64,000 nucleotides of DNA. It comes from Myxococcus xanthus (lineage in GTDB: Bacteria > Myxococcota > Myxococcia > Myxococcales > Myxococcaceae). The translations under genes and the position numbers were made by a program. The stretch's first letter is position 1; the number at the start of each line of letters is the position of its first letter. The stretch spans positions 6,242,001 through 6,306,000 of the forward strand of contig NZ_CP017174.1 in NCBI RefSeq assembly GCF_006402735.1. Direction: 5' to 3'. The notes beneath the pieces are model-generated. The model saw only the letters and a list, made by a program, of their open reading frames with translations. It did not search any database and was not told the origin of the DNA. Below are positions 5,491 to 64,000 of the stretch, in pieces.

Positions 5491-5548
5491 GATGTGACAG
5501 CATAGCCCCAGTTCCATGAGACCTGCTTGATGCCCGGCGCCCTACCCC

Positions 5549-5704: not shown

Positions 5705-5728
5705 GGATTGGACCCACCTTGCAGCAAG

Positions 5729-6247: not shown

Positions 6248-6297
6248 CCTCTCCAGGCGCGACGCTGCATTCTTTGAAGTGCCATTCAGCACCCACA

Positions 6298-6939: not shown

Positions 6940-7278
6940 CTTCTATTCAGACGCGAGCCTCACGCGGTTGGCCGGCGTCAAGTCCTGTAGTTGTTACGAG
7001 ACGGCACACATCTCCGGACGGCAGACGGCGTTCTGCCGTGACGGACTTCTACTCCGTCTGTCGTTAGCCTTCGTCTCCGTGGGCTCCCAGCGCCCGGCCC
7101 TTTCACCTGATAGGGCCGGGTCGTTCCGTCGATGACACAGACACCGCAATGCGTCATCCAGCGACGCAATCCGTTTCAACCCACCGGGTGTCAGAAACAC
7201 ACCATTTACACTAAGTGAAAACCCCCATACACACCGCGTGTCTCCAATTCGGAGACAACTCGCAATGAGGGGGAAGTC
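6940..7278. other. Gene-free stretch with three stem-loops
   Basis: No convincing gene. It holds three inverted repeats: ACGGCAGA/TCTGCCGT (7018-7025 with 7032-7039), GACGGA/TCCGTC (7040-7045 with 7053-7058) and a perfect 9-bp stem CCCGGCCCT/AGGGCCGGG (7093-7101 with 7112-7120). None is followed by a T run. The last 80 bases are AT-richer and must hold the promoter of the lipoprotein gene at 7279, but no clear -35/-10 pair was seen. Confidence 0.6.
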
Positions 7279-7795: not shown

Positions 7796-8833
7796 ATGAA
7801 GGCGCGTCCCATCGACAATCCGCCCAACCCCTGGGCGAGCACCGCGGTGGAGTACCTGGACGAAATCCCGCCGTCCAAGCTGGAGGTCTTCGAGGACCAC
7901 AGCCGGCAGGTGCTGTCGCACAACGACAGCCCGGACGTGGGCTTCAGCTGGAGCGTCAACCCGTACCGGGGCTGCCTCCACGCCTGCGCGTACTGCTACG
8001 CGCGGCCCACGCACCAGTACCTGGACATGGGCGCGGGCACCGACTTCGAGACGAAGCTGGTGGTGAAGCCCCGGGCGCCGGAGCTGCTCCGCGAGGCCTT
8101 CGAGAAACCCTCCTGGAAGGGTGAAACCGTCGTCTTCAGCGGCGTCACCGACTGCTACCAGCCGCTGGAGGCCTCCTTGCGGCTGACGCGAGGCTGCCTG
8201 GAGGTCTGCGCCGAGTACCGCAACCCGGTGGGCATCATCACCAAGGGCGTGCTCGTCGAACGGGACTTGGACGTCCTCCAAAGGCTGGCCCGGGACGCGC
8301 GCCTGTGGGTCAGCATCAGCCTCCCCTTCCACAACGCGGAGCTGGCCCGGGCCATGGAGCCCTATGCCGCCTCTCCCATGCGCCGACTGCTGACCATCCG
8401 CCGGCTCACCGAGGCGGGCATCGACGTGGCGGTGTCGGTGGCCCCCATCATCCCGGGCCTCAACGATGAGGACATCCACCGCGTGCTGGCCGCGGCGCGT
8501 GAAGCCGGCGCCACCCGCGCGCACCACATCCTGGTGCGGCTGCCCGGCCCGGTGAAGGACGTCTTCGCGGAGCGGCTGCGCGCGAAGCTGCCCCTGCGCG
8601 CGGAACGGGTGCTCCACCGCATCCGGGAAACCCGCGGCGGGGAGCTCAACGACAGCCGCTTCAAGCACCGGATGCGCGGTGACGGCCTCTACGCGGAGAC
8701 CATCCACCGCCTCTTCCACACCGCGGCGCGCAAGGTGGGCATCCGCGCCTCGTACATCACCGAGGACGCCCCGGACACCTTCCGGCGTCCGGAGCGCAAG
8801 CCGCCGCCCACGCCGCAGCTCAGCCTCTTCTGA
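7796..8833 (+). CDS. PA0069/Rv2578c-type radical SAM protein
   Basis: 345 residues. The cluster motif is the unusual CX3CX2C (Cys60, Cys64, Cys67, in RGCLHACAYCYAR), and the protein follows the layout of the PA0069-family radical SAM proteins, which are distantly related to spore photoproduct lyase. These use a 4Fe-4S cluster and S-adenosylmethionine; the substrate is not established to my knowledge. TIM-barrel segments such as VVFSGVTDCYQPLE and IDVAVSVAPIIPGLND are visible. The C-terminus is PPPTPQLSLF, whose last five residues match the consensus sliding-clamp binding peptide, pointing to DNA-related work. Monocistronic, with a terminator just upstream. Confidence 0.88.
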   Translation: MKARPIDNPPNPWASTAVEYLDEIPPSKLEVFEDHSRQVLSHNDSPDVGFSWSVNPYRGCLHACAYCYARPTHQYLDMGAGTDFETKLVVKPRAPELLREAFEKPSWKGETVVFSGVTDCYQPLEASLRLTRGCLEVCAEYRNPVGIITKGVLVERDLDVLQRLARDARLWVSISLPFHNAELARAMEPYAASPMRRLLTIRRLTEAGIDVAVSVAPIIPGLNDEDIHRVLAAAREAGATRAHHILVRLPGPVKDVFAERLRAKLPLRAERVLHRIRETRGGELNDSRFKHRMRGDGLYAETIHRLFHTAARKVGIRASYITEDAPDTFRRPERKPPPTPQLSLF

Positions 8834-8855
8834 GCGCGCACGCGGGCGGCGGGCG

Positions 8856-9104
8856 TCATTTCCGGATGGCTTGGACGATGGAGATGAGGATGACGGAGCC
8901 CACCGTCGCCACCAGCAGTGACCAGAGGTTGAAGCCCGTCACCCCGGTGCCGCCCATCAGACTGAAAACCCAGCCGCCAATCATGGCCCCGACGATGCCG
9001 GTGGCGATGTTGGCGAACATGCCCATGCGGGCGTTGGTGCCCTTGATGATGCTGGCCAGCCAGCCCGCGATGCCACCCAGCACCAACCACGTACAGATAC
9101 CCAT
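8856..9104 (-). CDS. GlsB/YeaQ/YmgE-family small membrane protein
   Basis: 82 residues with three hydrophobic helices and the Gly-rich pattern of the transglycosylase-associated / GlsB-YeaQ-YmgE stress-response family (GGIAGWLAS near residue 10, GIVGAMIGGW near 36). The start ATG at 9104 has a good ribosome-binding site (GGAGG, six bases before). The family sits in the inner membrane and is often induced by stress; its biochemical role is unclear. It converges on the radical SAM gene. Confidence 0.9.
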   Translation of the reverse strand: MGICTWLVLGGIAGWLASIIKGTNARMGMFANIATGIVGAMIGGWVFSLMGGTGVTGFNLWSLLVATVGSVILISIVQAIRK

Positions 9105-9225
9105 GACGACCTCCTTCGTGCCCTCCGGTTGCTATCAGACCTCCCGCCCTCGCGCAGCGGCCGACCGCCCTCCTCATGTACGCACGGGCCGTGGACGCAT
9201 TGCATCCGGCCCCTGAAACGACGAC

Positions 9226-9254
9226 GCCCCGTGCCTCGCTCGGAGACACGGGGC
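9226..9254 (-). terminator. Stem-loop terminator after the chalcone isomerase-like gene
   Basis: GCCCCGTG (9226-9233) pairs perfectly with CACGGGGC (9247-9254), 25 bases past the stop of the reverse-strand gene at 9279. There is no long T run, so termination strength is uncertain. Confidence 0.55.
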
Positions 9255-9278
9255 ATCCGCGGCGCGCGCGTGTGTCGC

Positions 9279-9836
9279 TCAGTCCTTGCCGAGCATGCCG
9301 TCGCGCAAGCTGCCATCCACCGGGCTCTTGCCCACGAAGACGGAGAAGAGCGCGTCGGAGAAGTCCTTGCCCTCGACGGAGATCTCCTTGCCCGTCTTGC
9401 TGGACACCTGCGTGCCCTGGCCGGGGATGTACGTGAGGATGAGCTCGTCACCCTTCTTCACGTCCGGGATGGCCGCGTTGAAGGTGTCCAGCTTGGGCTG
9501 GAGCTCCGGCAGCTTGGAGCCCGCGTTCTTCTTGAAGCCGTCGCCAATGGCATCGACGATGGTCTTCTTGTCCAGATCCCTCAGCATGTACATGCGCACA
9601 CGCTTGATCTGGTCCGAGCTGATGATGGCGGCGCCATCCTTGGACGGCGTCTCCAGATAGAGCCCCGCCGTATAGACCTTGAACACCAGCTTGCTGCGCA
9701 GGCCCACGCCGTTGAGCTTCAGCTCCTTGCCGGCAACGGACGCGGTCTCCGGGTACTTCACCCCCGCAACCTCCTTGGCGAAGGCCGGAACGGCGAACAT
9801 CAGGGACAGCACGACGGCGGTCAGCGAGGCTTTCAT
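9279..9836 (-). CDS. Exported chalcone isomerase-fold protein
   Basis: 185 residues. A Sec signal peptide ending AVPAFA is cleaved near residue 20. The mature protein (EVAGVKYPETASVAGKEL, then LNGVGLRSKLVFKVYTAGLYLE) is typical of bacterial chalcone isomerase-like proteins. These share the plant fold but are generally thought to bind fatty acids or act as periplasmic lipid-binding proteins rather than isomerases. The strand and helix order matches this fold, ending with the FVGKSPVDGSLRDGMLG helix. It is transcribed alone, behind serC on the same strand. Confidence 0.88.
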   Translation of the reverse strand: MKASLTAVVLSLMFAVPAFAKEVAGVKYPETASVAGKELKLNGVGLRSKLVFKVYTAGLYLETPSKDGAAIISSDQIKRVRMYMLRDLDKKTIVDAIGDGFKKNAGSKLPELQPKLDTFNAAIPDVKKGDELILTYIPGQGTQVSSKTGKEISVEGKDFSDALFSVFVGKSPVDGSLRDGMLGKD

Positions 9837-9877
9837 GAATCCTCCGGGTGTGGGTAATCCGTGCGGTTGGACGCAGC

Positions 9878-10966
9878 CTACCCGCGTGTCTTCACGAAGT
9901 GGTCCATGAAGGCGGCCAGCGTGCGCACATTCTCCACGCTCACCGCGTTGTACATTGAAACGCGGATTCCTCCGGCCGTCCGGTGCCCCTTGAGGCCCAC
10001 CATTCCTTGCTGCTTCGCGTCAGCGACGAAGGCCGCATCCAACGCATCCGAGGGCAACTGGAAGACAGCGTTCATCACTGAACGGGACTCGCGCTCCACC
10101 GGCGCGCGGTAGAAGTCCGGGTATCGGTCCACGGCCCCATAGAGCAACGCCGCTTTTTCCCGGTTCCACTGCTCCAGCTGCGCGAGGCCCCCCACCGACT
10201 GCACCCAGGCCAGGACGTTGCGCACCAGGTAGACGGCCAGGGTGGGCGGCGTGTTGTAGAGCGAGTTGTTCTCCGCGTGGGTGGTGTAGCGGAAGATCTT
10301 CGGAATGTCCGTCCGGCCCCGCGCGATGAACGCCTTGTCAGCCACCACCAGCGTCACGCCGGAGGGCCCCAGGTTCTTCTGCGCGCCCGCGTAGATGAGG
10401 CCGAAGCGGCTGACATCAAAGCCCTTCCACAGGAAGTCCGAGCTCATGTCCGCCACCAACGGCACGTTCCCCACGTCCGGGAAGGTGTGCCACTGGGTGC
10501 CAAAGATGGTGTTGTTGCTCGTCAGGTGGACATACGCCGCGTTCGAGTCGAGGCGCAGCTCATCCTGGCGGGGCACCCGCGTGTAGCGCTTGTCCGGCCG
10601 CGCCGTGCTCACCGCGACGCGCGGCGTGCCGTAGTACTTCGCCTCGTCGAAGGCCTTCTCGCTCCACACGCCCGTCATGAGGTAGTCCGCGCTGGCGCCG
10701 GGCGGCAGGAAGTTCATCGGCACCTGGGCGAACTGCTGGGAGGCGCCGCCGGTGAGGAACAGGACCTGGTGGGTGTCGGGAATCCCCAGCAGCCGGGTCA
10801 ACAGGGAGACGGCTTCGTCGTGGACCCCCTCGTATTCCCGTCCCCGGTGGCTGTGCTCCATCACCGACATGCCGGAGCCCTGGAAGTCGATCAGTTCGTC
10901 CCGAGCCCGCTCGAGGGCCGGCAGTGGCAGTCCGGCCGGGCCGGCGTTGAAGTTGATGACGCGCAT
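9878..10966 (-). CDS. serC: Phosphoserine aminotransferase
   Basis: 362 residues, the usual SerC length. It converts 3-phosphohydroxypyruvate and glutamate to phosphoserine in serine synthesis, and serves the matching step in pyridoxal-phosphate synthesis. The start is the ATG at 10966 ([14 protein letters not shown]), with an AAGGGA ribosome-binding site; an upstream in-frame ATG is not needed. Landmarks: N-terminal [16 protein letters not shown], the GGASQQF phosphate loop, the cofactor lysine in [12 protein letters not shown], and the C-terminal [15 protein letters not shown]. It is divergent from the ECF sigma gene, with under 160 bases between the starts. No serA or serB is adjacent. Confidence 0.96.
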
Positions 10967-43304: not shown

Positions 43305-44681
43305 TCACGTCAGTCCGAAGCGCTCCAGCTTCTTGAGCAGGCCCTGTCGCGACAGGCCCAGCGCCTCCGCCGTATGCGTGCGGTTGCCGTTCAGACGCCG
43401 CAGGGCCTCCTCGATTTCACGCCGCTCCAGCGCTTCCACCTTCTGCGCCAGCGTGGTGGTGCCCGGCGTGCTGGAGGGCCGTAGGCGCTCGCTGCCGGTG
43501 AAGGACAAATCCTCGGGTTGGATTTCGCGCCGCTCCCCCGCCAGCACGGTGGCGCGCTGCATCTCATGGCGCAGCTCGCGCAGATTCCCCGACCACGCAT
43601 GGGCCAGCAGGGCCTCCGCCGCGGCGTCCGACAACAGCCGGGCGCGGCCGTCCGGGCACAGGTGCGCGCACTGGTTGAGGAAGTGCTTGGCCAGCAGCGG
43701 CAGGTCCACGGGGCGCTCTCGCAACGGCGGCAGGCGGATTTCGACGCCCTTCACGCGCCAGAAGAGGTCCTCGCGGAAGGCGCCTTCCTGAAGCATGCGG
43801 CCCAGGTCCCGGTGGGTGGCGGAGATGAGCCGCACGTCCACCTGGACAGGCCGGTCCGCGCCCACCGGCAGGATGTCGCCCGTCTCCAACGCGCGCAGCA
43901 CCTTCACCTGGAGGGACGGCGACATGTCGCCCAGTTCGTCCAGGAAGAGCGTGCCTCCGTCCGCCTCCGCGAAGAGGCCACGGTGGTCCTTCGTCGCCCC
44001 GGTGAAGCTGCCCTTCACGTGGCCAAACAGGGCGCTCTCCAGCAATGACTCTGGAAGCGCGCCGCAGTTGATGGGGACGAAGGGCCCGTCGTGGCGGCGG
44101 CTCTTGAGGTGGACGGTGCGCGCGAGCAGCTCCTTCCCCGTCCCATTCTCCCCGGTGACGAGCACTGGCAGCTCACTGGCCGCCACGCGCTCCGCCAGGG
44201 ACGTGGCCGCCAGGAAGGATGCGCTCTGCCCCACCAGCGAGACACCGCCCGCCGCGCGCGTCAGCGAGCTGCGCAGCGTCTCCACCTGCCGCTCCAACGT
44301 CACCCGCGCGAGCGCCCGCTGCACCACCACCAGCAGCACGTCCGGGTCCACCGGCTTGGTGAGGAAGTCGTACGCACCCAGGCGCACCGCCTCCAACGTG
44401 TGCCGCGTGTCCCCCGCCCCGGACACGACGATGACCTTCGTCCCGGGCTTCGCGCTCAGCAACGCCGCGAGCCCTTCCAGCCCCGCGGAGACACTCCCGT
44501 CGGGAGGCAGCATCAGGTCGAGCAGCACCAGGGGGAAGTCGCGCGCGTCGAAGGCGGCGCGAGCGGAAGGCCGGTCCGTGGCTTCCACCACCTCGTAGCC
44601 CCCCTCGCGCAGCAGCCCGCCATAGACTTTGCGGAACGCGGCGTCGTCATCCACGAGCAGCAACGGGTGCGGTGCGGACAT
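43305..44681 (-). CDS. NtrC-type sigma-54-dependent response regulator
   Basis: 458 residues from the ATG at 44681; a GTG at 44696 adds five. Receiver domain: LLLVDDDAAF, phosphoacceptor in VLLDLMLPPDG, and LTKPVDPD. Central AAA+ domain: Walker A TGENGTGKELLAR, the sigma-54 contact loop as GSFTGATKD, Walker B GGTLFLDELGDM, and GNLRELRHEM. C-terminal Fis-type helix-turn-helix (ALRRLNGNRTHTAEALGLSRQGLLKKLERFGL). It activates sigma-54 promoters after phosphorylation; no sensor kinase is adjacent. It follows a small Cys-rich gene by 16 bases. Confidence 0.94.
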   Translation of the reverse strand: MSAPHPLLLVDDDAAFRKVYGGLLREGGYEVVEATDRPSARAAFDARDFPLVLLDLMLPPDGSVSAGLEGLAALLSAKPGTKVIVVSGAGDTRHTLEAVRLGAYDFLTKPVDPDVLLVVVQRALARVTLERQVETLRSSLTRAAGGVSLVGQSASFLAATSLAERVAASELPVLVTGENGTGKELLARTVHLKSRRHDGPFVPINCGALPESLLESALFGHVKGSFTGATKDHRGLFAEADGGTLFLDELGDMSPSLQVKVLRALETGDILPVGADRPVQVDVRLISATHRDLGRMLQEGAFREDLFWRVKGVEIRLPPLRERPVDLPLLAKHFLNQCAHLCPDGRARLLSDAAAEALLAHAWSGNLRELRHEMQRATVLAGERREIQPEDLSFTGSERLRPSSTPGTTTLAQKVEALERREIEEALRRLNGNRTHTAEALGLSRQGLLKKLERFGLT

Positions 44682-44697
44682 GCGTGTGGCATCCACC

Positions 44698-54134: not shown

Positions 54135-55151
54135 TCAGGCGCGGACTTCCACCTCGCGAACCTCGCGAGACACCTCCCGCACCTCGACCTTCACATCGAG
54201 GAACTGGGCGATAGTCTGGAGCTGCGTCTCGGCATGCCCATCCAGCGGCAGCGTGCGGAACGTGCCGCCCTTCGCCAGCGCCATGAGGAGTAACAGCTGG
54301 TCACACAGGTGCTCGCCCACCGGCACGCCCGCATCAAGGTAGCGCTTCACCTCTTCAGCGACCTGCTCGGCCACGACCTCCGCCCGCTTCCCGCGCTCAC
54401 CGAAGCCGGTGAAGACCTCCGTCACGTGATCGCTCTCCACCTCGGCGACCAGCACGTTGCCGGGCCCCAGCGGACGTTTCAGCTCCTCCGTCCGGAGTTC
54501 ATCGGGCCGCCACTTCAGCGCCGCCCCCGCCGTGCCCAGCTCGCGCTGCGCCACGTCGAACGGAATCATCGCAATCACGGCCTTCAGGTCGCGACGGACC
54601 ACGCGCCCCCGCTCCAGCAAGTGCAGCGGCTTCAGCGGCGCGGGTCGCACGTCGACCCGGAACCGCCCGCCCCCGGCCGGGAAGAAACCGGCACGCTCCA
54701 GGGTCGCCTCCACGGACGGCCCCATGCGACGGACCAGCGGCAGATACGCCCGCTGGAGGAAGTCGAACGGTGGTGCCATGGGGTTGTGCGTCCCCCCCTC
54801 CAACATCAGCGTGGAAGGCCCGTCCGCCAGGAGCAGCGCCGGAAGCACCGTCTGGAGCACCAGCGTCGCGCTGCCCGCGGTGCCTACCGCGAAGTGGTAG
54901 TTCCCCGCGGCCAGGGCACTCGGCCGGAAGGTCAGCTCGCGTGAGCCGAGCTCCGCGCCCGACACCTCCGCGGCCCCCACGGCCTCCGCGGCCTTCACCG
55001 ACGTCAGGTGCTGGCGCAGCAGGCCCGGCTTCTTCCGGCCCGCGCGGATGTTCTGGATGGTGAAGGGCTTGCCCGTCACCAGCGACAGCGCCAGCGAGGT
55101 GCGCAGCACCTGCCCCCCACCCTCACCCAATGAACCATCGATGCGCACCAT
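54135..55151 (-). CDS. rtcA: RNA 3'-terminal phosphate cyclase
   Basis: 338 residues. It converts RNA 3'-phosphate ends to 2',3'-cyclic phosphates using ATP, through a histidine-AMP intermediate. Landmarks: IDGSLGEGGGQVLRTSLALS, RKKPGLLRQHLTSVKAA, GGTHNPMAPPFDFLQ, GFFPAGGGR, and the C-terminal catalytic His block near VGEHLCDQLLLLMALA. Second gene of the rtcBA operon, 162 bases behind rtcB with a structured intergenic RNA between. Expression is probably controlled by RtcR through sigma-54. Confidence 0.97.
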   Translation of the reverse strand: MVRIDGSLGEGGGQVLRTSLALSLVTGKPFTIQNIRAGRKKPGLLRQHLTSVKAAEAVGAAEVSGAELGSRELTFRPSALAAGNYHFAVGTAGSATLVLQTVLPALLLADGPSTLMLEGGTHNPMAPPFDFLQRAYLPLVRRMGPSVEATLERAGFFPAGGGRFRVDVRPAPLKPLHLLERGRVVRRDLKAVIAMIPFDVAQRELGTAGAALKWRPDELRTEELKRPLGPGNVLVAEVESDHVTEVFTGFGERGKRAEVVAEQVAEEVKRYLDAGVPVGEHLCDQLLLLMALAKGGTFRTLPLDGHAETQLQTIAQFLDVKVEVREVSREVREVEVRA

Positions 55152-55221
55152 GACGACTCCCTCCTTGCTGCTCGCGACTCACGAACCACCCGGCACGCAC
55201 TGACACCACCGTGAAAATAGC

Positions 55222-55276
55222 GGCGCCCGCGTCCCCATCCTGGCGGCCTTTCGGCCTCTTGGGGAGCGCGGGCGCC
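55222..55276 (-). ncRNA. Structured RNA element between rtcB and rtcA
   Basis: GGCGCCCGCG (55222-55231) pairs with CGCGGGCGCC (55267-55276). TCCCCA (55232-55237) pairs with TGGGGA (55260-55265), leaving a one-base bulge. Inside, GGCC (55245-55248) pairs with GGCC (55253-55256) around a four-base loop that reads GAAA on the transcribed strand, a GNRA tetraloop. Shown as part of the operon mRNA; a separate RNA is not implied. Confidence 0.65.
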
Positions 55277-55313
55277 TCGGTGTCTTCATCCCGGCATGGT
55301 CACCTCTGGGTTT

Positions 55314-56549
55314 CTAGCCCTTCACGCACACGACCTGCTTCAGGGTGTGGACCACTTCCACCAGGTCCGCCTGCGCCGCCATCACCGCATCGATGGGCTT
55401 GTACGCAGCCGGCGTCTCGTCGATGACGTCCACGTCCTTGCGGCACTCCACGCCGGCGGTCGCCTTCACGTGGTCCTCCACCGTGAAGCGCCGCTTCGCC
55501 GCCTCACGCGACATCACCCGGCCCGCGCCGTGGCTGCAGGAGTGGAAGCTGTCCGCGTTCCCCTTCCCGCGGACGATGAACGAACGCGCCCCCATGCTTC
55601 CGGGGATGATGCCGAGGTCGCCCTCGCGCGCCCGCACCGCGCCCTTGCGCGTTACGAAGCAGTTCTTTCCGAAGTGGTGCTCACGGGCGATGTAGTTGTG
55701 GTGGCAGTTCACCGCCGCGTCCTTCAGCTCGAACGGAGGCAGCTCACCGCTCAACTGCAGCGCATCCACCGCCTCTTGCAGCATCAGCGCGCGGTTCGTC
55801 GCGGCGAAGTCCTGCGCCCAGCTCACCGCGAAGACGTAGTCCTCGAAGTGCTCCGTCCCTTCCGCCAGATACGCCAGGTCCCCGTCCGGCAGGTTGATGA
55901 ACCAGCGGCGCATGTCCTCCTTCGCCAGCTCGATGAAGTAGCTTCCGATGCGGTTCCCCACGCCGCGCGAACCGGAGTGCAACATCAGCCACACGCCATC
56001 CGACTCATCGAGGCACAGCTCGATGAAGTGGTTCCCCGTTCCCAGCGTCCCCAGGTGCGACAGCTCCGGCCCACGGCCGATGCGCGGATGCTTCCCGACG
56101 ATGCGGTCGTACCCCTCCACCAACCGCGCCCACTCCTTCTGGTGCCGTGCGGGCGCCACACGCCACGCGCCCACGTCGTTGCGGCCACCGTTGTCGGAGC
56201 GGCCATGCGGCACCGCCCGCTCAATCGCCGAGCGCACCCCACGCAGCGAGTCCGGGAGCTGGTCCGCCCGCAGCGTCGTGCGAACGGCGATCATCCCGCA
56301 ACCGATGTCCACGCCCACCGCCGCCGGCACCACCGCCCCTACCGTGGGGACCACGCTTCCCACCGTCGCGCCGTAGCCGCGGTGCACGTCCGGCATCACC
56401 GAGACCCACTTATGGATAAAGGGGAGGCCACGCAGGTTGCGGAGCTGCTTCTTCGCCTCGTCCTCGAACGGCACACCCACCGTCCACGCCTTGATGGGGC
56501 GGCCCGCCTCGTCCGACAGCACCTCGTAGTTCCCGTTGATGCGGCTCAT
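55314..56549 (-). CDS. rtcB: RNA-splicing ligase RtcB
   Basis: 411 residues from the ATG at 56549, with a GGTGGAG ribosome-binding site; a GTG at 56558 is also in frame. It joins RNA 3'-phosphate or 2',3'-cyclic phosphate ends to 5'-OH ends with GTP and Mn. Landmarks: ATVGSVVPTVGAVVPAAVGVDIGCGM (metal Asp and Cys), GNHFIELC, LHSGSRGVGN, AVNCHHNY, and the guanylylated His in CSHGAGRVMSR. First gene of the operon, divergent from rtcR, with a sigma-54 promoter 60 bases upstream. Confidence 0.97.
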   Translation of the reverse strand: MSRINGNYEVLSDEAGRPIKAWTVGVPFEDEAKKQLRNLRGLPFIHKWVSVMPDVHRGYGATVGSVVPTVGAVVPAAVGVDIGCGMIAVRTTLRADQLPDSLRGVRSAIERAVPHGRSDNGGRNDVGAWRVAPARHQKEWARLVEGYDRIVGKHPRIGRGPELSHLGTLGTGNHFIELCLDESDGVWLMLHSGSRGVGNRIGSYFIELAKEDMRRWFINLPDGDLAYLAEGTEHFEDYVFAVSWAQDFAATNRALMLQEAVDALQLSGELPPFELKDAAVNCHHNYIAREHHFGKNCFVTRKGAVRAREGDLGIIPGSMGARSFIVRGKGNADSFHSCSHGAGRVMSREAAKRRFTVEDHVKATAGVECRKDVDVIDETPAAYKPIDAVMAAQADLVEVVHTLKQVVCVKG

Positions 56550-56607
56550 CGTCTCCACCTTTCAGTCGTCCGCCGGGCGCTGTGTCCCGGTCACGGAGGA
56601 GGCCTAG

Positions 56608-56623
56608 AGCAGCCGGCGTGCCA
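56608..56623 (-). promoter_or_regulatory. Sigma-54 promoter of rtcBA
   Basis: On the reverse strand TGGCACGCCGGCTGCT fits the -24/-12 consensus (TGGCAC-N5-yTGCw). It lies 59 bases before the rtcB ATG and between rtcB and rtcR, as in enterobacteria where RtcR drives rtcBA from a sigma-54 promoter. Confidence 0.85.
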
Positions 56624-56693
56624 ACACGGCTCCCGAGGGACGCCCTCCAAGCGAGCTGGCATTCCCTATCTGGTTAGATAAAGTCCTATCCCT

Positions 56694-58316
56694 ATGGCGA
56701 AATCGCGCGCGCGCAAAACGGTGGTCCTGGGGATGCTCGGGACGACACTGGACAACGGGCAGGGGCCGCAGCGCTGGACGCGGTGGCGGCCCACGGTGGC
56801 GCTGTGCCAGCAGGAGGACCTGTTGGTGCACCGGCTGGAGCTGTTGCATCCGCCGAACGCGACCTCGCTCGCGGGCACGCTGGTGGGGGACATCCGGCAG
56901 GTGTCACCGGAGACGGAGGTGCGGGGCAGGCCCCTGGACATCCAGAATCCGTGGGACTTGGAGGAGACCTACGGCGCGCTGCTCGACTACGTGCGCGGCT
57001 ATGCCTTCAACCCCGAAGCGGAGGACTACCTGGTCCACATCACCACGGGCACGCACATCGCGCAGATCTGCATGTTCCTGCTGGTGGAGAGCCGGCTCAT
57101 CCCCGGCAAGCTGGTCCAGGTATCACCCGACCCCAGGGACCGCGCGGGGGCGGGCACGCACACCCTCATCGATCTGGACCTTTCCCAGTACGACACCCTG
57201 GCCGCGCGCTTCCGGCAGGAACAACGCGAAGGCCTGGCCTTCCTCAAGTCCGGCATCGACACCCGCAACGCAGCGTTCAACCGCCTCATCGAGCGCATCG
57301 AACAGGTGGCCGTCCAGTCCCGCGCGCCTCTGCTCATCACCGGTCCCACCGGCGCGGGCAAGTCGCAGCTCGCGCGGCGCATCTACGCGCTGAAGAAGTC
57401 GCGGCGCGGGGTGGCGGGCCCCTTCGTGGACCTCAACTGCGCCACGCTCCGGGGCGACGGCGCAATGTCCGCCCTCTTCGGCCACGTGAAGGGCGCCTTC
57501 ACGGGCGCGCTGAGCGACAGGCCCGGTCTGCTGCGGCAGGCGAATGGCGGGGTGCTGTTCCTGGACGAAATCGGTGAACTGGGCGCGGACGAGCAGGCCA
57601 TGTTGCTGCGCGCACTGGAGGACAAACGCTTCCTGCCAGTGGGCGCGGACCGCGAAGTGGAGAGTGACTTCCAGCTCATCGCCGGCACCAACCGGGACCT
57701 CCAAGTCGAGGTCGAGCGCGGGCGCTTCCGGGAGGACCTGCTCGCGCGCATCAACCTATGGACCTTCCGGCTGCCCGCGTTGCGCGAGCGTCCGGAGGAC
57801 ATCCCACCCAACCTGCTCTTCGAACTGGACCAGTCCTCCGAGGCCGTGGGCACGCGCGTCACCATGAACAAGGAGGCGCAGGAGCGCTTCCTGGACTTCG
57901 CCACGTCCTCCGAGGCGCGATGGGCGGGCAACTTCCGCGACCTCAACGCGGCGGTGCTGCGCATGGCCACGCTGGCGGCGGGCGGACGGATTACTCGGGA
58001 CGTGGTGGACGAGGAGCTCGAACGGCTGCGCGAGCAGTGGCGGCCCTCCGGAGCGAAGGCGGCGGTCGTCGCCGGGGACCTGGTCGCGGAGGTGCTGGGG
58101 GAGAACCTCGCCAGCGAGCTGGACCGCTTCGACCGGGTCCAGCTCGCGGACGTGCTGAGCGTCTGCCGGGCATCACGCTCGTTGTCGGACGCGGGGCGCG
58201 TGCTGTTCGCTCAGTCACGCGCCCAGAAGAAGAGCGTCAACGACGCGGACCGGTTGAAGAAGTACCTGGCCCGCTTCGGCCTCACGTGGGCGGACGTCAG
58301 CGGGCGAGGCGCGTAG
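56694..58316 (+). CDS. rtcR: RtcR, sigma-54 activator of RNA repair genes
   Basis: 540 residues. Residues 1-185 are the RtcR regulatory domain with a CARF-like fold (KTVVLGMLGTTLDNGQGPQRW, YLVHITTGTHIAQICMFLLVESR). The AAA+ domain follows: Walker A ITGPTGAGKSQLAR, GHVKGAFTGALSDRPG with an intact GAFTGA loop, and GGVLFLDEIGEL. The C-terminus carries the DNA-binding helix-turn-helix (RAQKKSVNDADRLKKYLARFGLTWADV). In E. coli, the domain senses damaged or cyclic-phosphate RNA ends and drives rtcBA. Divergent from rtcB; the M24 gene converges on its end. Confidence 0.96.
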   Translation: MAKSRARKTVVLGMLGTTLDNGQGPQRWTRWRPTVALCQQEDLLVHRLELLHPPNATSLAGTLVGDIRQVSPETEVRGRPLDIQNPWDLEETYGALLDYVRGYAFNPEAEDYLVHITTGTHIAQICMFLLVESRLIPGKLVQVSPDPRDRAGAGTHTLIDLDLSQYDTLAARFRQEQREGLAFLKSGIDTRNAAFNRLIERIEQVAVQSRAPLLITGPTGAGKSQLARRIYALKKSRRGVAGPFVDLNCATLRGDGAMSALFGHVKGAFTGALSDRPGLLRQANGGVLFLDEIGELGADEQAMLLRALEDKRFLPVGADREVESDFQLIAGTNRDLQVEVERGRFREDLLARINLWTFRLPALRERPEDIPPNLLFELDQSSEAVGTRVTMNKEAQERFLDFATSSEARWAGNFRDLNAAVLRMATLAAGGRITRDVVDEELERLREQWRPSGAKAAVVAGDLVAEVLGENLASELDRFDRVQLADVLSVCRASRSLSDAGRVLFAQSRAQKKSVNDADRLKKYLARFGLTWADVSGRGA

Positions 58317-58323
58317 GCCGGGC

Positions 58324-59742
58324 TCAGAGCATGGGCATGCCACGCGTCGTCACGCCCTTGCCTCCCTTCGCGCCCTGACTTCGCTGCCCTCCCTGCCCAT
58401 CGCGGCCCAGGAGGTAGAACGACTCCTGCCGGGACACGAAGAACTTCCAGCCCTCCTCGGTGAGGTAGGCCGGGTCCTCCTGCATCACGAAGACCTTCTG
58501 CCCGTCCCACTCCGGCACCGCGGTGGCGGTGTTCAGCTCGATGGCGATGTACGAGCCCAGGCGAAGTGTCTTGGCCTCCTCCTGCCGGCTCGCCGAGCGG
58601 AAGTCGATGCTCGCGCCCAGCGCGTGGCCCTGATTACCCAGCGGGTGGCTGTACACCATGGCCTCGATGCCCTTCTCCTTCATCTCCGCCATCGTCTGCG
58701 TGTACACCTGCGCGGAGGTGCGGCCCGGACGGGAGGCGCGCAGCATCAGCGCGTCCTGGAGTTCGATGGTGTTGGCCAGCGCCCGCTTGAGCCCCTCCGG
58801 CGCGTCCGTCTCCCCCTCGTTCAGCACGTAGGCCATCTTCTGCCAGTCGGAGTTCAGCCCCATGTAGGTGATGCCGAAGTCCACGTGGAGCAGGTCGCCG
58901 CGGAGGATGACGACGTCCTCCTTCGCGGGCGCCAGGAAGCCTCGCGAGCTCGAGCCGTCCATGCCCTTGCGCTGCACGCGCAGGTCCGGCTGGAACCAGG
59001 TATCCACGCCCAGCTCCCAGAGCCTGTCATAGAGGAAGCGGCGCACGTCACCGACGGTCGTCTTCCCCGGCACCACCACCTCCGGAGAGAAGGCCTCCTT
59101 CACCACGGCCTCCGTCAGCATCACCAGCCGCTGGTAGTGCAACCACTCCTCGGGGATGCGCGTGTCCAGGTACTCCTCGATGAGCGGCGCGGCGCTCACG
59201 AAGCGGGCCTCCGCCTCCGCGCCCAGGGACTCCACCAGGAAGGCATAGCTGTCCTTCGTCAGGCTGCGCGTCACCCCGCGCTTGCCGCCAATGCCCAGGG
59301 CAATCGTCCGGGGCTGATAGCGCGTGTTCAGGTCCGCCAGGATCTCCTGCGGCTTGCGCCCTTCTTCGGGCAGCTCGAAGAAGCGCGCGAGCGTGGCCTC
59401 CGAGTAGCCGGAGAGCGCGACGCGCTTGAGTCCCTCGGGCCCGGCGTCGACGAACACGAAGATGTCCCGGTTGCCCGCATATGGACGCGGCGGCGCGATG
59501 AACTGGGTGAGCGGGTCGTCGTGGAACTCCTCGTTGACGACCACCCACATGCCCACGCCATGGCGGCGCATCATGTCCAGCAGCATGCCGTGGCGCTTCT
59601 CCAGCCAGGCTTCGCGCTCGGCGATCTGCTCCGACCAGGACATGAGGCGCGGCGGCGACTTGTCAGCAGCGCCCTGGCGCCCCGTGGTGGCACAGGCGGC
59701 CAGCAGCAACAGCGGCAGGGCCGCCCACTTCACGGACTTCAT
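58324..59742 (-). CDS. M24-family (Xaa-Pro-type) peptidase lipoprotein
   Basis: 472 residues from the ATG at 59742. A signal peptide with lipobox LAAC makes it a lipoprotein. Residues 30-210 are the N-terminal creatinase-like domain. The pita-bread domain follows, with LLHVDFGITYMGLNSDWQKMAYVL, SHPLGNQGHALGASIDF, and GSYIAIELNTATAVPEW. The usual metal ligands (Asp, Asp, His, Glu, Glu) appear only partly: HVDFG and the SHPLGNQGHALG His are present, but the second Asp lies in SDWQK. So activity is likely but altered. A strong 15-bp hairpin lies 55 bases upstream. Confidence 0.82.
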   Translation of the reverse strand: MKSVKWAALPLLLLAACATTGRQGAADKSPPRLMSWSEQIAEREAWLEKRHGMLLDMMRRHGVGMWVVVNEEFHDDPLTQFIAPPRPYAGNRDIFVFVDAGPEGLKRVALSGYSEATLARFFELPEEGRKPQEILADLNTRYQPRTIALGIGGKRGVTRSLTKDSYAFLVESLGAEAEARFVSAAPLIEEYLDTRIPEEWLHYQRLVMLTEAVVKEAFSPEVVVPGKTTVGDVRRFLYDRLWELGVDTWFQPDLRVQRKGMDGSSSRGFLAPAKEDVVILRGDLLHVDFGITYMGLNSDWQKMAYVLNEGETDAPEGLKRALANTIELQDALMLRASRPGRTSAQVYTQTMAEMKEKGIEAMVYSHPLGNQGHALGASIDFRSASRQEEAKTLRLGSYIAIELNTATAVPEWDGQKVFVMQEDPAYLTEEGWKFFVSRQESFYLLGRDGQGGQRSQGAKGGKGVTTRGMPML

Positions 59743-59788
59743 GTGAGGACTCCCATCGAGAAGGAGGCCGCACCGTATCGCATGAAAG

Positions 59789-59842
59789 CCAGGGGGCCTC
59801 CGCCTCCAGAGCCCTTGGAATCTCTGGAGGCGGAGGGCCTGG
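59789..59842. repeat. Large inverted repeat upstream of the M24 gene
   Basis: CCTCCGCCTCCAGAG (59797-59811) pairs perfectly with CTCTGGAGGCGGAGG (59822-59836) around a 10-base loop. Flanking CCAGG/CCTGG extends it with small bulges. It is in the leader of the M24 gene on the reverse strand; no T run follows on either strand. Confidence 0.7.
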
Positions 59843-60024
59843 GGCGCGCCCCCTCCCTCACTCCCTGGAAGTCCGCACTCCAGCGCCTCTTCGGATGAAC
59901 GCGTCCTCAACGCCCGCGTCATGTGGTCGTCGGCCCCCCAGTCCCACCGCGGCCACCCTTCGAGATGACGGCTGTCCCCCGACGCCGTCTGCTGGAGCGG
60001 GGCTTCGTCCCCCGCGCGCCGAAC

Positions 60025-60270
60025 TCAGAAGCTGGCGATCCGGAACTCGAAGTCGCTCTCGTCGAACGCCTCCAGTCCCTGCCCCCCCAGGTCCTCCGCG
60101 TTTCCCCCCGCCTTCACAACACTCCGCGCGTCCCCCCAACCGCCCCGCTCCCCCCGGCTGGAGCTCCCGTTCGACCAGGCCGCCCATCCCCCGCCCATCG
60201 CCCCACGCCCCTCCTCAGGTGCCCAGATACCGCTCGCATCCCCTTGGCCCCGCGCGTCACCACGAAACAT
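60025..60270 (-). CDS. Candidate small gene (81 residues)
   Basis: Uncertain. The ATG at 60270 has a strong ribosome-binding site (GGGGGAG, four bases before). The product is Gly/Arg/Ala-rich in its first 55 residues and ends in an acidic, aromatic tail (EAFDESDFEFRIASF). No signal peptide or known domain. It lies just after the terminator that closes the CHAT operon, so it would need its own promoter. It may be a real small protein or a chance frame in GC-rich DNA. Confidence 0.35.
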   Translation of the reverse strand: MFRGDARGQGDASGIWAPEEGRGAMGGGWAAWSNGSSSRGERGGWGDARSVVKAGGNAEDLGGQGLEAFDESDFEFRIASF

Positions 60271-60353: not shown

Positions 60354-60392
60354 TTCAAAAAAATCCGGGACGCCCCGAGCGGGAGCGTCCCG
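60354..60392 (-). terminator. Intrinsic terminator of the sigma/CHAT operon
   Basis: On the reverse strand, GGGACGC (from 60391) pairs with GCGTCCC (to 60367), reinforced by inner CCC/GGG and a short loop, then a run of seven T (rc of 60357-60363). It lies 50 bases past the stop of the 62-residue peptide gene. Confidence 0.88.
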
Positions 60393-60441
60393 TAAAACCT
60401 GTATCGCCAGCGCGACTCAGGACAATCCGGAAAACTGTCAC

Positions 60442-60630
60442 TTATTTACGACGTGAGCTGTCCGAGCCATCTGGTTGAGACGCCGTATTCACGGACGGAA
60501 CGACGGACATCCTCGCCGAGAACGGCGGGTGCGCCGTCAGGCCCGGGGTGGGCTCCGGCGGTGGGTCATGCGGGTTGATGCTCACCACCGCCCCATCACG
60601 CTTCGACTTCTTCGAGAGCTTCTTCACCAT
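60442..60630 (-). CDS. 62-residue basic peptide encoded behind the CHAT protease
   Basis: The ATG at 60630 has a good AGGGGG ribosome-binding site. The product is MVKKLSKKSKRDGAVVSINP, then a Pro-rich stretch (HDPPPEPTPGLTAHPPF), then SARMSVVPSVNTA and an RRK end. No signal peptide or membrane segment. It starts 94 bases after the CHAT gene stop on the same strand and is followed by the terminator, so it closes the sigma/CHAT operon. Small proteins encoded beside caspase-clan proteases are often their substrates; that role is a hypothesis here. Confidence 0.72.
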   Translation of the reverse strand: MVKKLSKKSKRDGAVVSINPHDPPPEPTPGLTAHPPFSARMSVVPSVNTASQPDGSDSSRRK

Positions 60631-60724
60631 CGCATCCCCCTCTGCGCGGCACCGGCGAGGACAAGCGGCATGCCATCCCCCGCCTCCGCACCGGTACAAC
60701 GCGCCGAGTCGGATTCCTTGGCCA

Positions 60725-63721
60725 TCATTCGAAGAGGAGGATGCCGTGGACCCAGTCCGCGGAGGGGTGGGCCGCCAGCCATGTGCGCCGCTCGTCGCGG
60801 AGCGCGAGGGCCGCCGGCGCGCCGGCCCGGATGCGCTCACGAACCGCTTCGAAGAAGCGCCCCGCCGAGTCGGGGATTTCCGCCGTGGAGGCCAACACCG
60901 TGGCCGCGCCGGCTTCGATGAAGGCCACCGGCAGGCTGAAGGACTCATGAAGGAAGGGCGTGGCCCGTGCCGCGCTACACGTGGCCAGCAGCACGAGCGG
61001 CGCGCGCTCCAGCTTCAGCGCGCGAACCTGGGGGGCGGACAGCGCATATCGGCCATCTGTTTCAGGCGCCAGCACCACCAGCGAGGCGTCCGACATCTCA
61101 GGGCTGAAGGCGCCGTGCGCGTGGATTTCCACCTCGCTGGCCTGCGCCATGGCCGCCAGCACCCGCGTCGGCGTGGCCTGTATGCCCGACAGCTCGATTC
61201 GCTGCGGGTCCGGCGCGTGCGGCGGCTCCAGTGGAAGCAACCGCGGGAGGCCCAGCGACGCGGGCGCCTCCACCCCATTGACGACCAGGTGCGGCCCGCT
61301 GCCACGAGCCAGCACGGGAGACGCTCCTCCGGGCCGCCCCACACGGTAGCTCCAGGCGAGGTCCGCGGGCAGCAGTCCCCGCAGGCCATGCACCGGCGGC
61401 AGTGCGAGCACGTCCACCCGCTCGCAGCCCTTCAAGGCGGCCTGGAGCGACGGAGGCACCAGCCCGGAGGCGTCCCGCCCCAGGGGCTCCGCGCGGCTGG
61501 CGTCGAAGTGCCCCTGCAGCTCGCCCGTGGCGCCGCGCAGCGCCACCACCGAGCGCTCGTAGTCCACGGCGACGCCCAGCACACACCGCGCGGGCACCTC
61601 CACCTGAAGCGCGGCGCCCATGAGCGCCAGGGCCTCACCTGGGGCGTCCGTGCGGCCTGCCTCGTGCGCCAGGACGTTGTAGGCCCCCATGCGCGTCTTG
61701 CGCGCGTCCACATCGTTGGGAAGGGACTCCGCCTGTTGGATGGCGCCGCGCAGCAGCTCCAGCCCGGTCGCGCGGTCGCGCTCCAGCACGAACTGCCCCT
61801 CGGCGAAACGCATCTGCGCGAGCTTGCCCGGTGAGGGCTGCCCCCGGTGCAGCTCGGCCAGAGTGCGGCGCAACAGGTCCGCGTCCTGGCTGTCCGCCCC
61901 GAAGCGCGCCAGGTACGACAGCAACAGCGCGCCGGGCAGCCCCAGCGGCCGGCCACACTCCTGCGCCAGCTCCAGCTCGTTCCGCGCCTCGTGCGCGTCG
62001 AACTCCAGCCACGACAGGTATGCCAGGTTGCGGTGCACGTAGGTGCGCTGCTCGCAGGCCTCGGGCGTTCGCGCCAGGGACTCGCGCAGGTAGGCGCGCG
62101 CGCTGGTGACGTCCAACCGGTAGCGAGCGATGTGCGCCAGCTCCTGGAGGAACTGCTGCTCCAACTCCCATTCCTCCAACTCCCGGGATGCCAGCCAGCC
62201 ACTCCATGCCTGCTCGAACGCCTCCGCCGGGCGGTTGAGCGCGAGATAGAGGTCCGACAGCCGCTTCTTCAGCGTGGCGCAGCGGTAGGACAACCCCTTG
62301 CCCTGACAGGCGCCCACGGCCGCGCGCAGCCGCGCCTCCGCCTTCCACCATTCGCCCGCGCGCTCCTCGGCGCCCGCCAGCTCTCGCTCGGCCAGCAGCG
62401 ACAACCAGGGGTCCTCGGCCGCACGGGCCAGCCGCGTGAAATCCTCCAGGTGGCGCGCGCCTGCCGTCTGATTGATGAGCCCGCCCAGGTACAGGTCGTC
62501 CTCGCCCGAACGCCGCAGCGTCTCCAGGAAGCGCTCTGGCGAGGACAGCTCGCCCCGCACGAGCTTCGCGTAGTCCGCCGCCAGGGGTGCACGGCGGCTG
62601 AAATCCCGCTCCGCCACACGCTGCACGTAGCCGCGAAGCACCTCGCCGCCCTGGACGCCGTCCAACACGTCCGCCAGCGGCAGCAGGCGCAGGGTCCACT
62701 CCCGCGACGGCGCGGCCCTCACTGCGTCGTAGAACGCCAGCCGGACGATGCCAGGAAAGCGCTTCGCCTCCTCCAGCGGGAGCCGCGCCTGCGCGTCCAC
62801 CATCAGGTCCCGCACCGCCGCGCGAGCCCCCTTCCAGGCCCGCCCACGCGCCTGCGTCTGATGCCGGAGCGCTCGCGCGCGGATCCGCGCCTCCTCGCTC
62901 CAGCCTGGATCCCCGCGCTTCACCACCGCGTCGAATGCCTCCGCGGCCAGCAGCGTCAGCCCCATCTCCCGCAGCACCAGCGCCCGGTTCCACTGCGCCT
63001 GGGCGTGCTCGGGCGCCTGTCGCAATACCCCGTCCAGCAGTGCCAGCGCCTGTTCCGGATGCCCCTGCTCCAACGCGACGATGGCCAGGTCGCTGTCCCG
63101 GTCCGGTGACGGCGACATCCGGTGGAGGAAGTCGGAGGCTTGCCGCAGGTCCTTGCGGACCAGGTACGCGGCGGCAATGCCATGCAGGTCCCCCTGGTCC
63201 TCCAGATCCGCCAGCGCCCGGAGCGGCAATGCCGCGCCAGTCCCGCCCGGAGGGCCACTGACAGCCGCGCGCAGGGGCACATAGGGCCGGTGTCCGTCCG
63301 CGCGTGCATAGGCAACCCTCGCCTCGATGAGACGCGACGACGTCTGCGCGAGCCAGACCTCCTGCTGGGAGCCCCGCACATCGGCGCTCTTGACGACGAG
63401 CACCAGGACGATGGCCGCCGCCACGGCGCCCACCGCGAACGGGGCCCAGCGCCAGTGAGGGCGCCCCGGCACTTCGGCCGTGTCACGTGTCTTGGGCGCG
63501 TCGGACGCCATCCTGGTTTCGGGCGCGCCCTCCTGCTCGTGCGCCAACGCCTGCGGGTCCCCCATCACATGGAAGCCCAGCAGCTCCAGTTGCATGGCTT
63601 CGTGCAGGCCGGACGCGCAGGGGTCACAGCGAGCGAGGTGATGCCGGAAGTTCTCCTCGTCCACGGGCGGCAGCTCGCCATCCAGGAAGAGGGACAGCCT
63701 GTTACAGAGCGTCCCCATCAC
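60725..63721 (-). CDS. Anti-sigma zinc finger-TM-TPR-CHAT protease fusion
   Basis: 998 residues; the start overlaps the sigma gene stop (ATGA). Residues 1-45 carry a zinc anti-sigma motif, H28-x3-C32-x2-C35. A transmembrane helix lies near 90-112. Residues 115-690 are helical with tetratricopeptide-like units (QGHPEQALALLDGVLRQAPEHAQAQWNRAL and others). Residues about 710-998 are a CHAT caspase-fold domain with His869 in EIHAHG and Cys915 in LLATC, both present, then the EAGAATVLAS strand. So one chain would hold the sigma factor inside and the protease outside the inner membrane. Functional linkage is inferred. Confidence 0.9.
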   Translation of the reverse strand: MMGTLCNRLSLFLDGELPPVDEENFRHHLARCDPCASGLHEAMQLELLGFHVMGDPQALAHEQEGAPETRMASDAPKTRDTAEVPGRPHWRWAPFAVGAVAAAIVLVLVVKSADVRGSQQEVWLAQTSSRLIEARVAYARADGHRPYVPLRAAVSGPPGGTGAALPLRALADLEDQGDLHGIAAAYLVRKDLRQASDFLHRMSPSPDRDSDLAIVALEQGHPEQALALLDGVLRQAPEHAQAQWNRALVLREMGLTLLAAEAFDAVVKRGDPGWSEEARIRARALRHQTQARGRAWKGARAAVRDLMVDAQARLPLEEAKRFPGIVRLAFYDAVRAAPSREWTLRLLPLADVLDGVQGGEVLRGYVQRVAERDFSRRAPLAADYAKLVRGELSSPERFLETLRRSGEDDLYLGGLINQTAGARHLEDFTRLARAAEDPWLSLLAERELAGAEERAGEWWKAEARLRAAVGACQGKGLSYRCATLKKRLSDLYLALNRPAEAFEQAWSGWLASRELEEWELEQQFLQELAHIARYRLDVTSARAYLRESLARTPEACEQRTYVHRNLAYLSWLEFDAHEARNELELAQECGRPLGLPGALLLSYLARFGADSQDADLLRRTLAELHRGQPSPGKLAQMRFAEGQFVLERDRATGLELLRGAIQQAESLPNDVDARKTRMGAYNVLAHEAGRTDAPGEALALMGAALQVEVPARCVLGVAVDYERSVVALRGATGELQGHFDASRAEPLGRDASGLVPPSLQAALKGCERVDVLALPPVHGLRGLLPADLAWSYRVGRPGGASPVLARGSGPHLVVNGVEAPASLGLPRLLPLEPPHAPDPQRIELSGIQATPTRVLAAMAQASEVEIHAHGAFSPEMSDASLVVLAPETDGRYALSAPQVRALKLERAPLVLLATCSAARATPFLHESFSLPVAFIEAGAATVLASTAEIPDSAGRFFEAVRERIRAGAPAALALRDERRTWLAAHPSADWVHGILLFE

Positions 63722-64000
63722 GCGCTGCCTCCTCCGTCGCTCCCGGTGAGCGGCAACAGCAGCGCCTTCAACTCCTTACGGGCCTGATAGAGCCAGCTCC
63801 CCACGGTGCCTTCGGGGACGCCCATGCGCAGGGCGATGGCGCGGTAGCGCAGCCCCGAGGCATGCAGCGAATACGCCTCACGCACCCTGGGATTCGGCAG
63901 TTGGGCAATGGCCGCCTGGAAGTCCTTCTCCGAGATGTGCTCCCAGACCTCCATGGCCTCCGGTTCGGGGGCCGCCACCCCCTCGCGCACCAGCCGCAAC
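63718..64000 (-). CDS. RNA polymerase sigma factor, C-terminal part
   Basis: Runs off the right edge; only the last 94 or so codons are in view. Region 4 is clear: ISEKDFQAAIAQLPNPRVREAYSLHASGLRYRAIALRMGVPEGTVGSWLYQARKELKALLLPL. This is the helix-turn-helix that binds the -35 element in ECF sigma factors. Its stop overlaps the start of the anti-sigma/CHAT fusion by four bases, so the pair is translated together. The N-terminal region 2 is outside the window. Confidence 0.88.
   Translation of the reverse strand, partial: LRLVREGVAAPEPEAMEVWEHISEKDFQAAIAQLPNPRVREAYSLHASGLRYRAIALRMGVPEGTVGSWLYQARKELKALLLPLTGSDGGGSA

Follow-up and report, generated by a model that had tools for sequence, protein, structure and literature searches.

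A DdvA-type sigma/anti-sigma operon with a clade-specific proline-rich peptide gene in Myxococcus xanthus

The stretch of DNA analysed here (the window) comprises 64,000 nucleotides of Myxococcus xanthus (RefSeq assembly GCF_006402735.1, contig NZ_CP017174.1, positions 6,242,001 to 6,306,000). An apparent operon lies on the minus strand at the window end, in which a gene for an extracytoplasmic function (ECF) sigma factor is followed by a gene for a large protein with a CHAT domain (the CHAT gene), by a gene for a 62-aa peptide, and by a hairpin terminator. The features of this operon are as follows.

63718 to 64000, minus strand: 3' part of the ECF sigma factor gene, which is cut by the window end and continues for about 320 bases beyond it
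60725 to 63721, minus strand: DdvA-type transmembrane anti-sigma gene (the CHAT gene), 998 codons from GTG or 997 from the adjacent ATG
63614 to 63706, minus strand: zinc-binding anti-sigma (ZAS) motif C6...H28xxxC32xxC35, with zf-HC2 at residues 8-36
63392 to 63448, minus strand: single transmembrane helix, residues ~92-110, with the N-terminus predicted inside
60767 to 61198, minus strand: CHAT domain core, residues 842-985, with H869 and C915 (Pfam CHAT, 5e-15)
60442 to 60630, minus strand: gene for the 62-aa proline-rich DPPP peptide, stop included, with the Shine-Dalgarno sequence GAGGGG, clade-wide recurrence, and a pN/pS of 0.40
60366 to 60392, minus strand: intrinsic terminator 3' of the peptide gene, with an 11-pair stem (9 G-C) and a T-run

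The complete sigma frame (locus L005:5718-6320) encodes 200 aa with Pfam matches to both conserved regions, Sigma70_r2 (2.2e-9) and r4_2 (1.2e-11), and also scores above the cut-off of TIGR02937 (sigma70-ECF). The two candidate starts of the CHAT gene, GTG at 63721-63719 and ATG at 63718-63716, each overlap the sigma stop codon TGA at 63720-63718, so that the coupling claimed in a preliminary description of this DNA, with an anti-sigma/TPR/CHAT fusion starting within the sigma stop, holds for either start. The 62-residue frame and the terminator behind it were likewise found as described there; the frame begins 94 nt beyond the CHAT gene and is preceded by a strong Shine-Dalgarno sequence. The terminator scan expects 1.6 such sites by chance, and the call is based on its position and on the recurrence of the hairpin in relatives. 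We infer that the sigma, anti-sigma, and peptide genes are co-transcribed.

The 998-residue protein gave Pfam matches above the cut-off to zf-HC2 (residues 8-36, 1.3e-7), TPR_16 (residues 211-270, 3e-9), and CHAT (residues 842-985). Residue conservation was judged in 59 aligned rows, namely the window protein, DdvA (with its last residues missing), and 57 rows taken from fetched loci, among them L076, which repeats the window's own copy. Window-type proteins are heavily represented in this set, from which rows without differences in the last 600 residues and matches spanning no more than 740 query residues were left out. The zinc ligands C/H/C/C are kept in every row covering the position (53-54 of 59), the six rows that lack all or part of the zinc region being five fragments at contig starts and L007. 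The His-Cys dyad H869/C915 is invariant in 59/59 rows, including DdvA, and the rows that keep it diverge to ~36% identity. Together, the profile searches and the alignment bear out the zinc motif, the single transmembrane helix, the TPRs, and the CHAT domain with H869 and C915 that had been read from the letters alone.

The topology is predicted from two kinds of evidence. The strongest hydrophobic 19-mer falls within residues 71-122 in 28/28 aligned proteins, and in all 28 the net charge on the N-side of the transmembrane segment is more positive than that on the C-side (positive-inside). In addition, cysteines 556 and 589 come and go as a pair: 49 of the 59 rows have the two, 10 have neither, and no row has just one; among the other cysteine pairs outside the active site, 472/481 are both present in 58/59 rows and 713/766 in 59/59. 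Because of the positive-inside bias and the concordant 556/589 pair, as for a disulfide in an oxidising compartment, the TPR-CHAT part is placed in the periplasm. The zinc domain is thus predicted to be cytosolic, and the TPR-CHAT part periplasmic with disulfides.

The window protein is almost certainly an anti-sigma factor of the DdvA type. A profile made from 28 full-length relatives matched PDB entries 8rot and 8rw5 ('CHAT domain-containing protein') over their full length (E 1.7e-229) and 8rlz ('Antisigma factor DdvA'), which shares its N-terminus with 8rot/8rw5, at E 3.7e-11. The window protein alone matched 8rot/8rw5 over residues 4-998 (phmmer, E 1.1e-138), and it is 36.5% identical to DdvA over 909 aligned positions, the DdvA sequence used being without its last residues. 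Judged by sequence, it is a paralogue of DdvA and not DdvA itself, since one genome (G064) carries both genes, DdvA at 100% and the window type at 97%. Among the matches listed for 27 genomes of the genus, one genome has a match above 60% identity to DdvA, the next best DdvA matches are at most 43%, the DdvA-like matches number 4-12 per genome, and 24 of the 27 genomes have a match of at least 62% identity to the window protein (that of G149 being partial). All 27 contain a match to the window protein at E <= 1e-40, as do 67 of 195 genomes in a sample of the phylum, 66 of these belonging to the window's own family.

Of the 52 members whose flank is long enough, 51 have a sigma gene immediately upstream and in the same orientation, and a further five have too little flank; co-occurrence with sigma genes, which had been proposed as a check of the predicted unit, is therefore nearly complete. 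The sole exception is L007, which lacks the zinc domain. In the DdvA locus (L131, in genome G064), sigma and anti-sigma genes overlap by one base as they do in the window, and the sigma factor there, taken as DdvS by position, is 34.7% identical to the window sigma over 173 residues (E 9e-25); the PDB matches included no chain named DdvS. The fusion of anti-sigma and TPR-CHAT next to its sigma gene, which the preliminary description had found unfamiliar, is therefore of an already known kind: DdvA/DdvS of M. xanthus has the same architecture and solved structures. A lack of CHAT fold or dyad, named in that description as a possible refutation, is answered only through this solved homologue. 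DdvA is an anti-sigma factor that holds DdvS inactive, DdvS becomes active once DdvA is inactivated (PMC4374960), and DdvS controls an island of CBASS and type III-B CRISPR-Cas (PMC12288465). By its likeness to DdvA, the window copy would also hold its sigma factor inactive.

What sets the window operon apart is the peptide gene. The 57 locus rows were searched for a frame of 35-130 codons containing D(K/V)PPx(2-6)G and starting at most 260 nt downstream of the CHAT gene. Such a frame follows 40 of the 42 rows with at least 51.5% identity to the window protein and none of the 15 below that line (sister classes C and D), the line having been set after the rows were seen. The controls gave 0/57 on the reverse strand and 20/1140 in shuffled flanks that kept base composition only. 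The 42 rows form one clade (FastTree, rooted on DdvA, the clade being read from topology alone), in which the two rows without the peptide, L037 and L052, are sisters. The 39 distinct peptides are 52-68 aa long with 12-28% proline, and their ends vary around a kept core, 'DPPPxxxxGL'. None of the 39 has a hydrophobic stretch (the highest 15-residue mean is 0.73) or a signal sequence. A Shine-Dalgarno-like stretch precedes the start in 39/39 frames, partly by construction because starts were chosen for it.

The conservation fits a coding frame. Over the nine sequences from the loci closest to the window, pN/pS is 0.40 and indels are in frame, and INPHDPPPEPTPGLT is identical in all nine, the frames having been located by its first nine letters (INPHDPPPE), a string that all nine closest loci had. 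A lack of conservation of the 62-aa frame, named in the preliminary description as a refutation, is thus not what was observed. The core is kept across paralogues of ~50% identity, and the peptides differ between paralogues. With a peptide profile (alignment A3) in 15 genomes, 9/9 matches below 1e-4 adjoin CHAT genes; because A3 was built from CHAT-adjacent peptides, matches of this kind are in part expected, and the informative result is that other strong matches are lacking. In the window's own genome this profile finds a single copy, that in the window. The window row of A3 has one extra leading residue and lacks its last residue, and the scan scored at most 150 candidates per genome and missed the known G017 peptides and some second copies. 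The peptide gave no family match in Pfam, NCBIfam, or PADLOC models, and our literature search found no paper on a peptide linked to DdvA-type genes, which is not proof of absence. As far as can be searched, two things look new and make up the remaining novelty, namely the peptide confined to one clade and the proposed closed and insulated control at the promoter that is set out below. In the place of the peptide, four class C anti-sigma genes (L008, L060, L061, and L066) are followed by a predicted lipoprotein (~178 aa, without a Pfam family over the cut-off; L008:9213-9746).

Upstream of the sigma gene, CCAAGGAT-N12-CGT is present in 26 of 26 distinct window-class stretches, in a region that is otherwise variable, and the exact full form CCAAGGATT-N11-CGTTTCGA is present in 20 of them. 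When one mismatch is allowed, 12 genomes contain 14 sites of the element; 11 of these lie at this sigma operon, and the reversed pattern gave 0. The pattern was built from the same loci at which it was counted. Of the 11 genomes with the operon site, nine have no other and two (G062 and G076) have an additional one; G066 has a single site, which adjoins a truncated sigma-like frame (L101). The window's own genome (G000) has no second site at this threshold, and at up to three mismatches it has 10 sites including that of the operon, against 2 for the reversed pattern. The sites at 2-3 mismatches were set aside as a regulon, L117/L114 lying inside a called coding frame and L123/L124 facing no called gene; the L115 site has a called gene ahead and is weakly placed. 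Weaker targets beyond the operon are possible. Classes B (7 rows) and C (10 rows) have other conserved stretches upstream of sigma, as read by eye. From these patterns, the paralogues would be insulated, self-regulating switches, each with the operon itself as its strict regulon. In that case the peptide would be all that the regulon yields besides regulators, and it may be the main product of the switch. A related promoter-like element, TCAAGGNTT-N11-CGTTTNGA, is conserved between genes in four genomes of the genus (L112, L113, L123, and L124, position ~1501-1528); it faces no called gene in its direction and may represent a small RNA or a site of another sigma factor.

Given the observed architecture, DdvA homology, and sigma coupling, together with the predicted topology and the conserved promoter-like element and peptide frame, the whole is probably best explained as a DdvS/DdvA-type sigma/anti-sigma switch formed by a DdvA paralogue, in a branch that has gained a peptide gene. 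The membrane switch proposed earlier is thus retained, as one polypeptide with sigma-holding and caspase-clan domains whose gene has a sigma gene of its own and a conserved peptide gene as partners. At rest, the N-terminal zinc domain would retain the sigma factor on the cytosolic side of the inner membrane, and the single helix would lead to a periplasmic TPR-CHAT part that senses an envelope signal. Upon this signal, CHAT would make a periplasmic cut in the anti-sigma itself or in its dimer partner. The sigma factor, set free by the intramembrane proteolysis that follows, would then direct transcription of the operon that encodes it, starting at the CCAAGGATT-N11-CGTTTCGA element. Peptide levels would increase mainly in the on state, and the peptide would act as a dedicated effector or a feedback part. 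Proteolysis, the dimer, release of sigma, autoregulation, and any role of the peptide are what we infer here, and the parts differ in strength: for CHAT self-cleavage as the trigger we see just under an even chance, and a role of the peptide as effector or feedback part is put forward tentatively. A 2024 structural study of DdvA reportedly found transmembrane dimers with a periplasmic TPR-CHAT part and proposed possible self-cleavage ahead of intramembrane proteolysis.

Several points weigh against this reading. The Pfam CHAT model was aligned at positions 123-270 of its 289 only, so that the domain is abbreviated, and the His-Cys site of DdvA is said to have been called incomplete in the same structural study. 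The CHAT domain, a putative protease with its dyad present and its model match partial, may therefore be a pseudo-enzyme that serves as a sensor only. Nine of the ten rows that lack the 556/589 pair belong to a single clade and the tenth is DdvA, so that the concordance may reflect perhaps two events. The conserved stretch is a candidate promoter, and with nine extra sites at 2-3 mismatches in the window's own genome, weaker sites elsewhere may exist. Lastly, the peptide is absent in two members of the clade, in classes C and D, and in the fetched flanks of the DdvA locus, and it is dispensable for this type of switch because CHAT anti-sigmas elsewhere work without it.

Among other explanations, a non-catalytic CHAT domain is a serious candidate, to which we give somewhat less than an even chance: CHAT would be a periplasmic sensor, and proteases of the site-1/site-2 type would cut the anti-sigma when a ligand binds TPR-CHAT. 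That Pfam CHAT is matched in its C-terminal half only fits a sensor, as do the three conserved cysteine pairs, which suggest a rigid outer domain, and a CHAT-less ZAS-TM-TPR protein (TM, transmembrane) with a coupled sigma factor (L007:9198-10601) suggests that the switch is possible without CHAT; H869/C915 would, however, be unneeded by a pure sensor and is present in every aligned row. It is very improbable that the window protein is instead a Craspase-like cytosolic protease that cuts cytosolic targets including the 62-aa peptide. This idea draws on the TPR-CHAT protease Csx29, which has as its substrate Csx30, an inhibitor that binds an ECF sigma factor (PMC10028731), and on the conservation of the peptide beside the CHAT gene. 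The predicted topology (28/28) and the cysteine pair, however, put CHAT outside, the NCBIfam Csx29 model gives no match to the window protein at E <= 0.1, PADLOC found no Cas7-11 or Cas nuclease system among 17 scanned neighbours, and the sister classes lack the peptide; cytosolic proteolysis of this kind was set aside on the predicted topology. The preliminary description had named Craspase-type systems among those with CHAT proteases and suggested the peptide as a substrate. Craspase is a distant relative only; a direct substrate role is unlikely because CHAT is predicted to be periplasmic while the peptides show no signal sequence, and the absence of the peptide in classes C and D (0/15) and in the L131 flanks makes it more doubtful.

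The two remaining alternatives concern the peptide. It could be a secreted or exported signal that is processed outside by CHAT or by a neighbouring M24 peptidase and sensed by the TPR part in other cells. The peptide is indeed small and proline-rich with variable ends around a kept core, the peptides differ among paralogues, and a lipoprotein with an M24 peptidase domain is encoded downstream (58324-59922), a similar frame being found in five more of the ten displayed loci. Against export stand the lack of a hydrophobic stretch in any of the 39 peptides, three loci (L030, L031, and L036) in which no such lipoprotein is encoded next to the peptide, and the fact that no adjoining transporter gene was noticed, no systematic search for one having been made; we consider this improbable. 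That the small frame is untranslated and its conservation reflects a leader, a terminator, or an RNA element is hardly credible: it does lie close to the terminator, but the pN/pS with in-frame indels, the amino-acid core kept across ~50%-identical paralogues, and the Shine-Dalgarno-like stretch in 39/39 frames, though starts were chosen for it, all speak for translation. The DdvS/DdvA-type switch with a gained peptide gene thus remains our preferred explanation. A further-reaching version of it, which we regard as rather unlikely, is that one DdvA-type clade evolved a dedicated peptide with which the switch supplies its own partner and which would be almost the sole product of the sigma factor apart from regulators. 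Through its DPPPxxxxGL core this peptide would bind either the TPR-CHAT protein or the sigma factor, whether as a ligand for feedback or as an effector or alarm peptide, and its diversification per paralogue would give several insulated, peptide-tagged membrane switches per cell.

The neighbourhood was examined with PADLOC on 17 neighbours in ~32 kb, which gave no CBASS match and no Cas nuclease system. The CRISPR-linked models match regulator-type neighbours only: RtcR with a CARF domain (56694-58316, E 8.6e-255), a second sigma-54 regulator at 43308-44696, and a WYL/HTH regulator (L005:10518-11246; WYL 8e-40, Cas3c 2e-11 over the same stretch). These regulators are taken as ordinary neighbours. 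Weak matches were obtained for PD-T4-6 (6e-6), SduA (2e-5), C3a206, and ZorF, and for BovA (7e-5) in the case of paralogue P0003. With only regulator-type and weak matches, a defence island beside the locus was rejected. Remote control of a distant island by the window sigma is conceivable. RtcA, RtcB, and the divergent RtcR form an RNA-repair cluster close to the switch (54135-58316), and RNA damage sensing may be linked to the sigma/anti-sigma switch. Downstream of the proline-rich peptide gene, the frame at 58324-59922 (minus strand) encodes the predicted lipoprotein with the M24 (Xaa-Pro type) peptidase domain, and a similar frame is found in 6/10 displayed loci, the window's own included. 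Beyond the terminator, an 81-aa frame at 60025-60270 (minus strand; MFRGDA...GMWAPEEGRG...DLEFQIASF in relatives) has no Pfam match; it occurs, whole or partial, in 5/10 displayed loci (L009, which is the window's own, L015, L018, L020, and L026), with one good-scoring copy in the window's own genome.

CHAT relatives show how the parts recombine. The window's own genome encodes four CHAT proteins: one of the window type, a class C copy at L008 with a sigma gene upstream and a predicted lipoprotein downstream, and one each at L007 and L006. At L007, where the switch has a split form, a TM-TPR-CHAT protein without a zinc domain (4361-7144) lies 1.5 kb upstream of a coupled pair formed by a sigma gene and the gene for a ZAS-TM-TPR protein without CHAT (8641-10601). 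L006:2801-7823 holds another sigma/CHAT operon of a different make, which comprises a sigma gene, a putative membrane anti-sigma without a Pfam match, a small gene, and a TPR-CHAT protein that has a secreted-looking, signal-like N-terminus, a C-terminal hydrophobic stretch, and a full CHAT domain (E 1.7e-58). Evidently, the modules were fused or split during evolution. Short zinc-domain frames lie behind the sigma gene in Corallococcus and related records (L067-L074). Two records titled Comamonas sp. KCTC 72670 (L046 and L066) carry Myxococcus-like window-type (80%) and class C genes, and their name is probably wrong.

DdvA, which controls an antiphage island (PMC12288465), is the one studied member of this group, and the window type is the common form in the genus. 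No signal or target for DdvA-like paralogues was found in the searchable papers. Should every paralogue prove to be an insulated envelope switch under a promoter of its own, and one clade to make its own peptide, the peptide would offer direct access to what the switches sense or achieve, and also to whether CHAT domains fused to anti-sigmas really cut.

Compared with known systems, the window operon is closest to DdvA/DdvS of M. xanthus, with which it shares the full-length domain order ZAS-TM-TPR-CHAT with the His and Cys residues and the overlapping upstream sigma gene. Unlike DdvA, whose fetched locus flanks (L131) lack it, the window branch has the DPPP peptide, and unlike DdvS/DdvA, which controls a CBASS/CRISPR-Cas island, no such island was found at the window locus. 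Zinc anti-sigmas of the RsiW/RsrA type share the ZAS motif and the coupling to a sigma factor, with weak profile matches at the N-terminus only (RsiW, 5wuq, E 0.0016; RsrA, 5frf, E 0.075). These anti-sigmas have small or no outer domains, whereas the window protein carries ~880 residues of TPR-CHAT. ECF54 sigma factors have CHAT proteins in their gene context (PMC8999054) and so resemble the window operon in having an ECF sigma factor beside CHAT, but in the window CHAT is fused to the anti-sigma. Like the Csx29-Csx30-CASP-sigma system (Craspase, type III-E; PMC10028731), the window operon combines TPR-CHAT with control of an ECF sigma factor through an inhibitor; in Craspase, however, the protease and the sigma inhibitor are separate and RNA-guided, whereas in the window, where no Cas7-11 was seen, both belong to one membrane protein with CHAT predicted outside.

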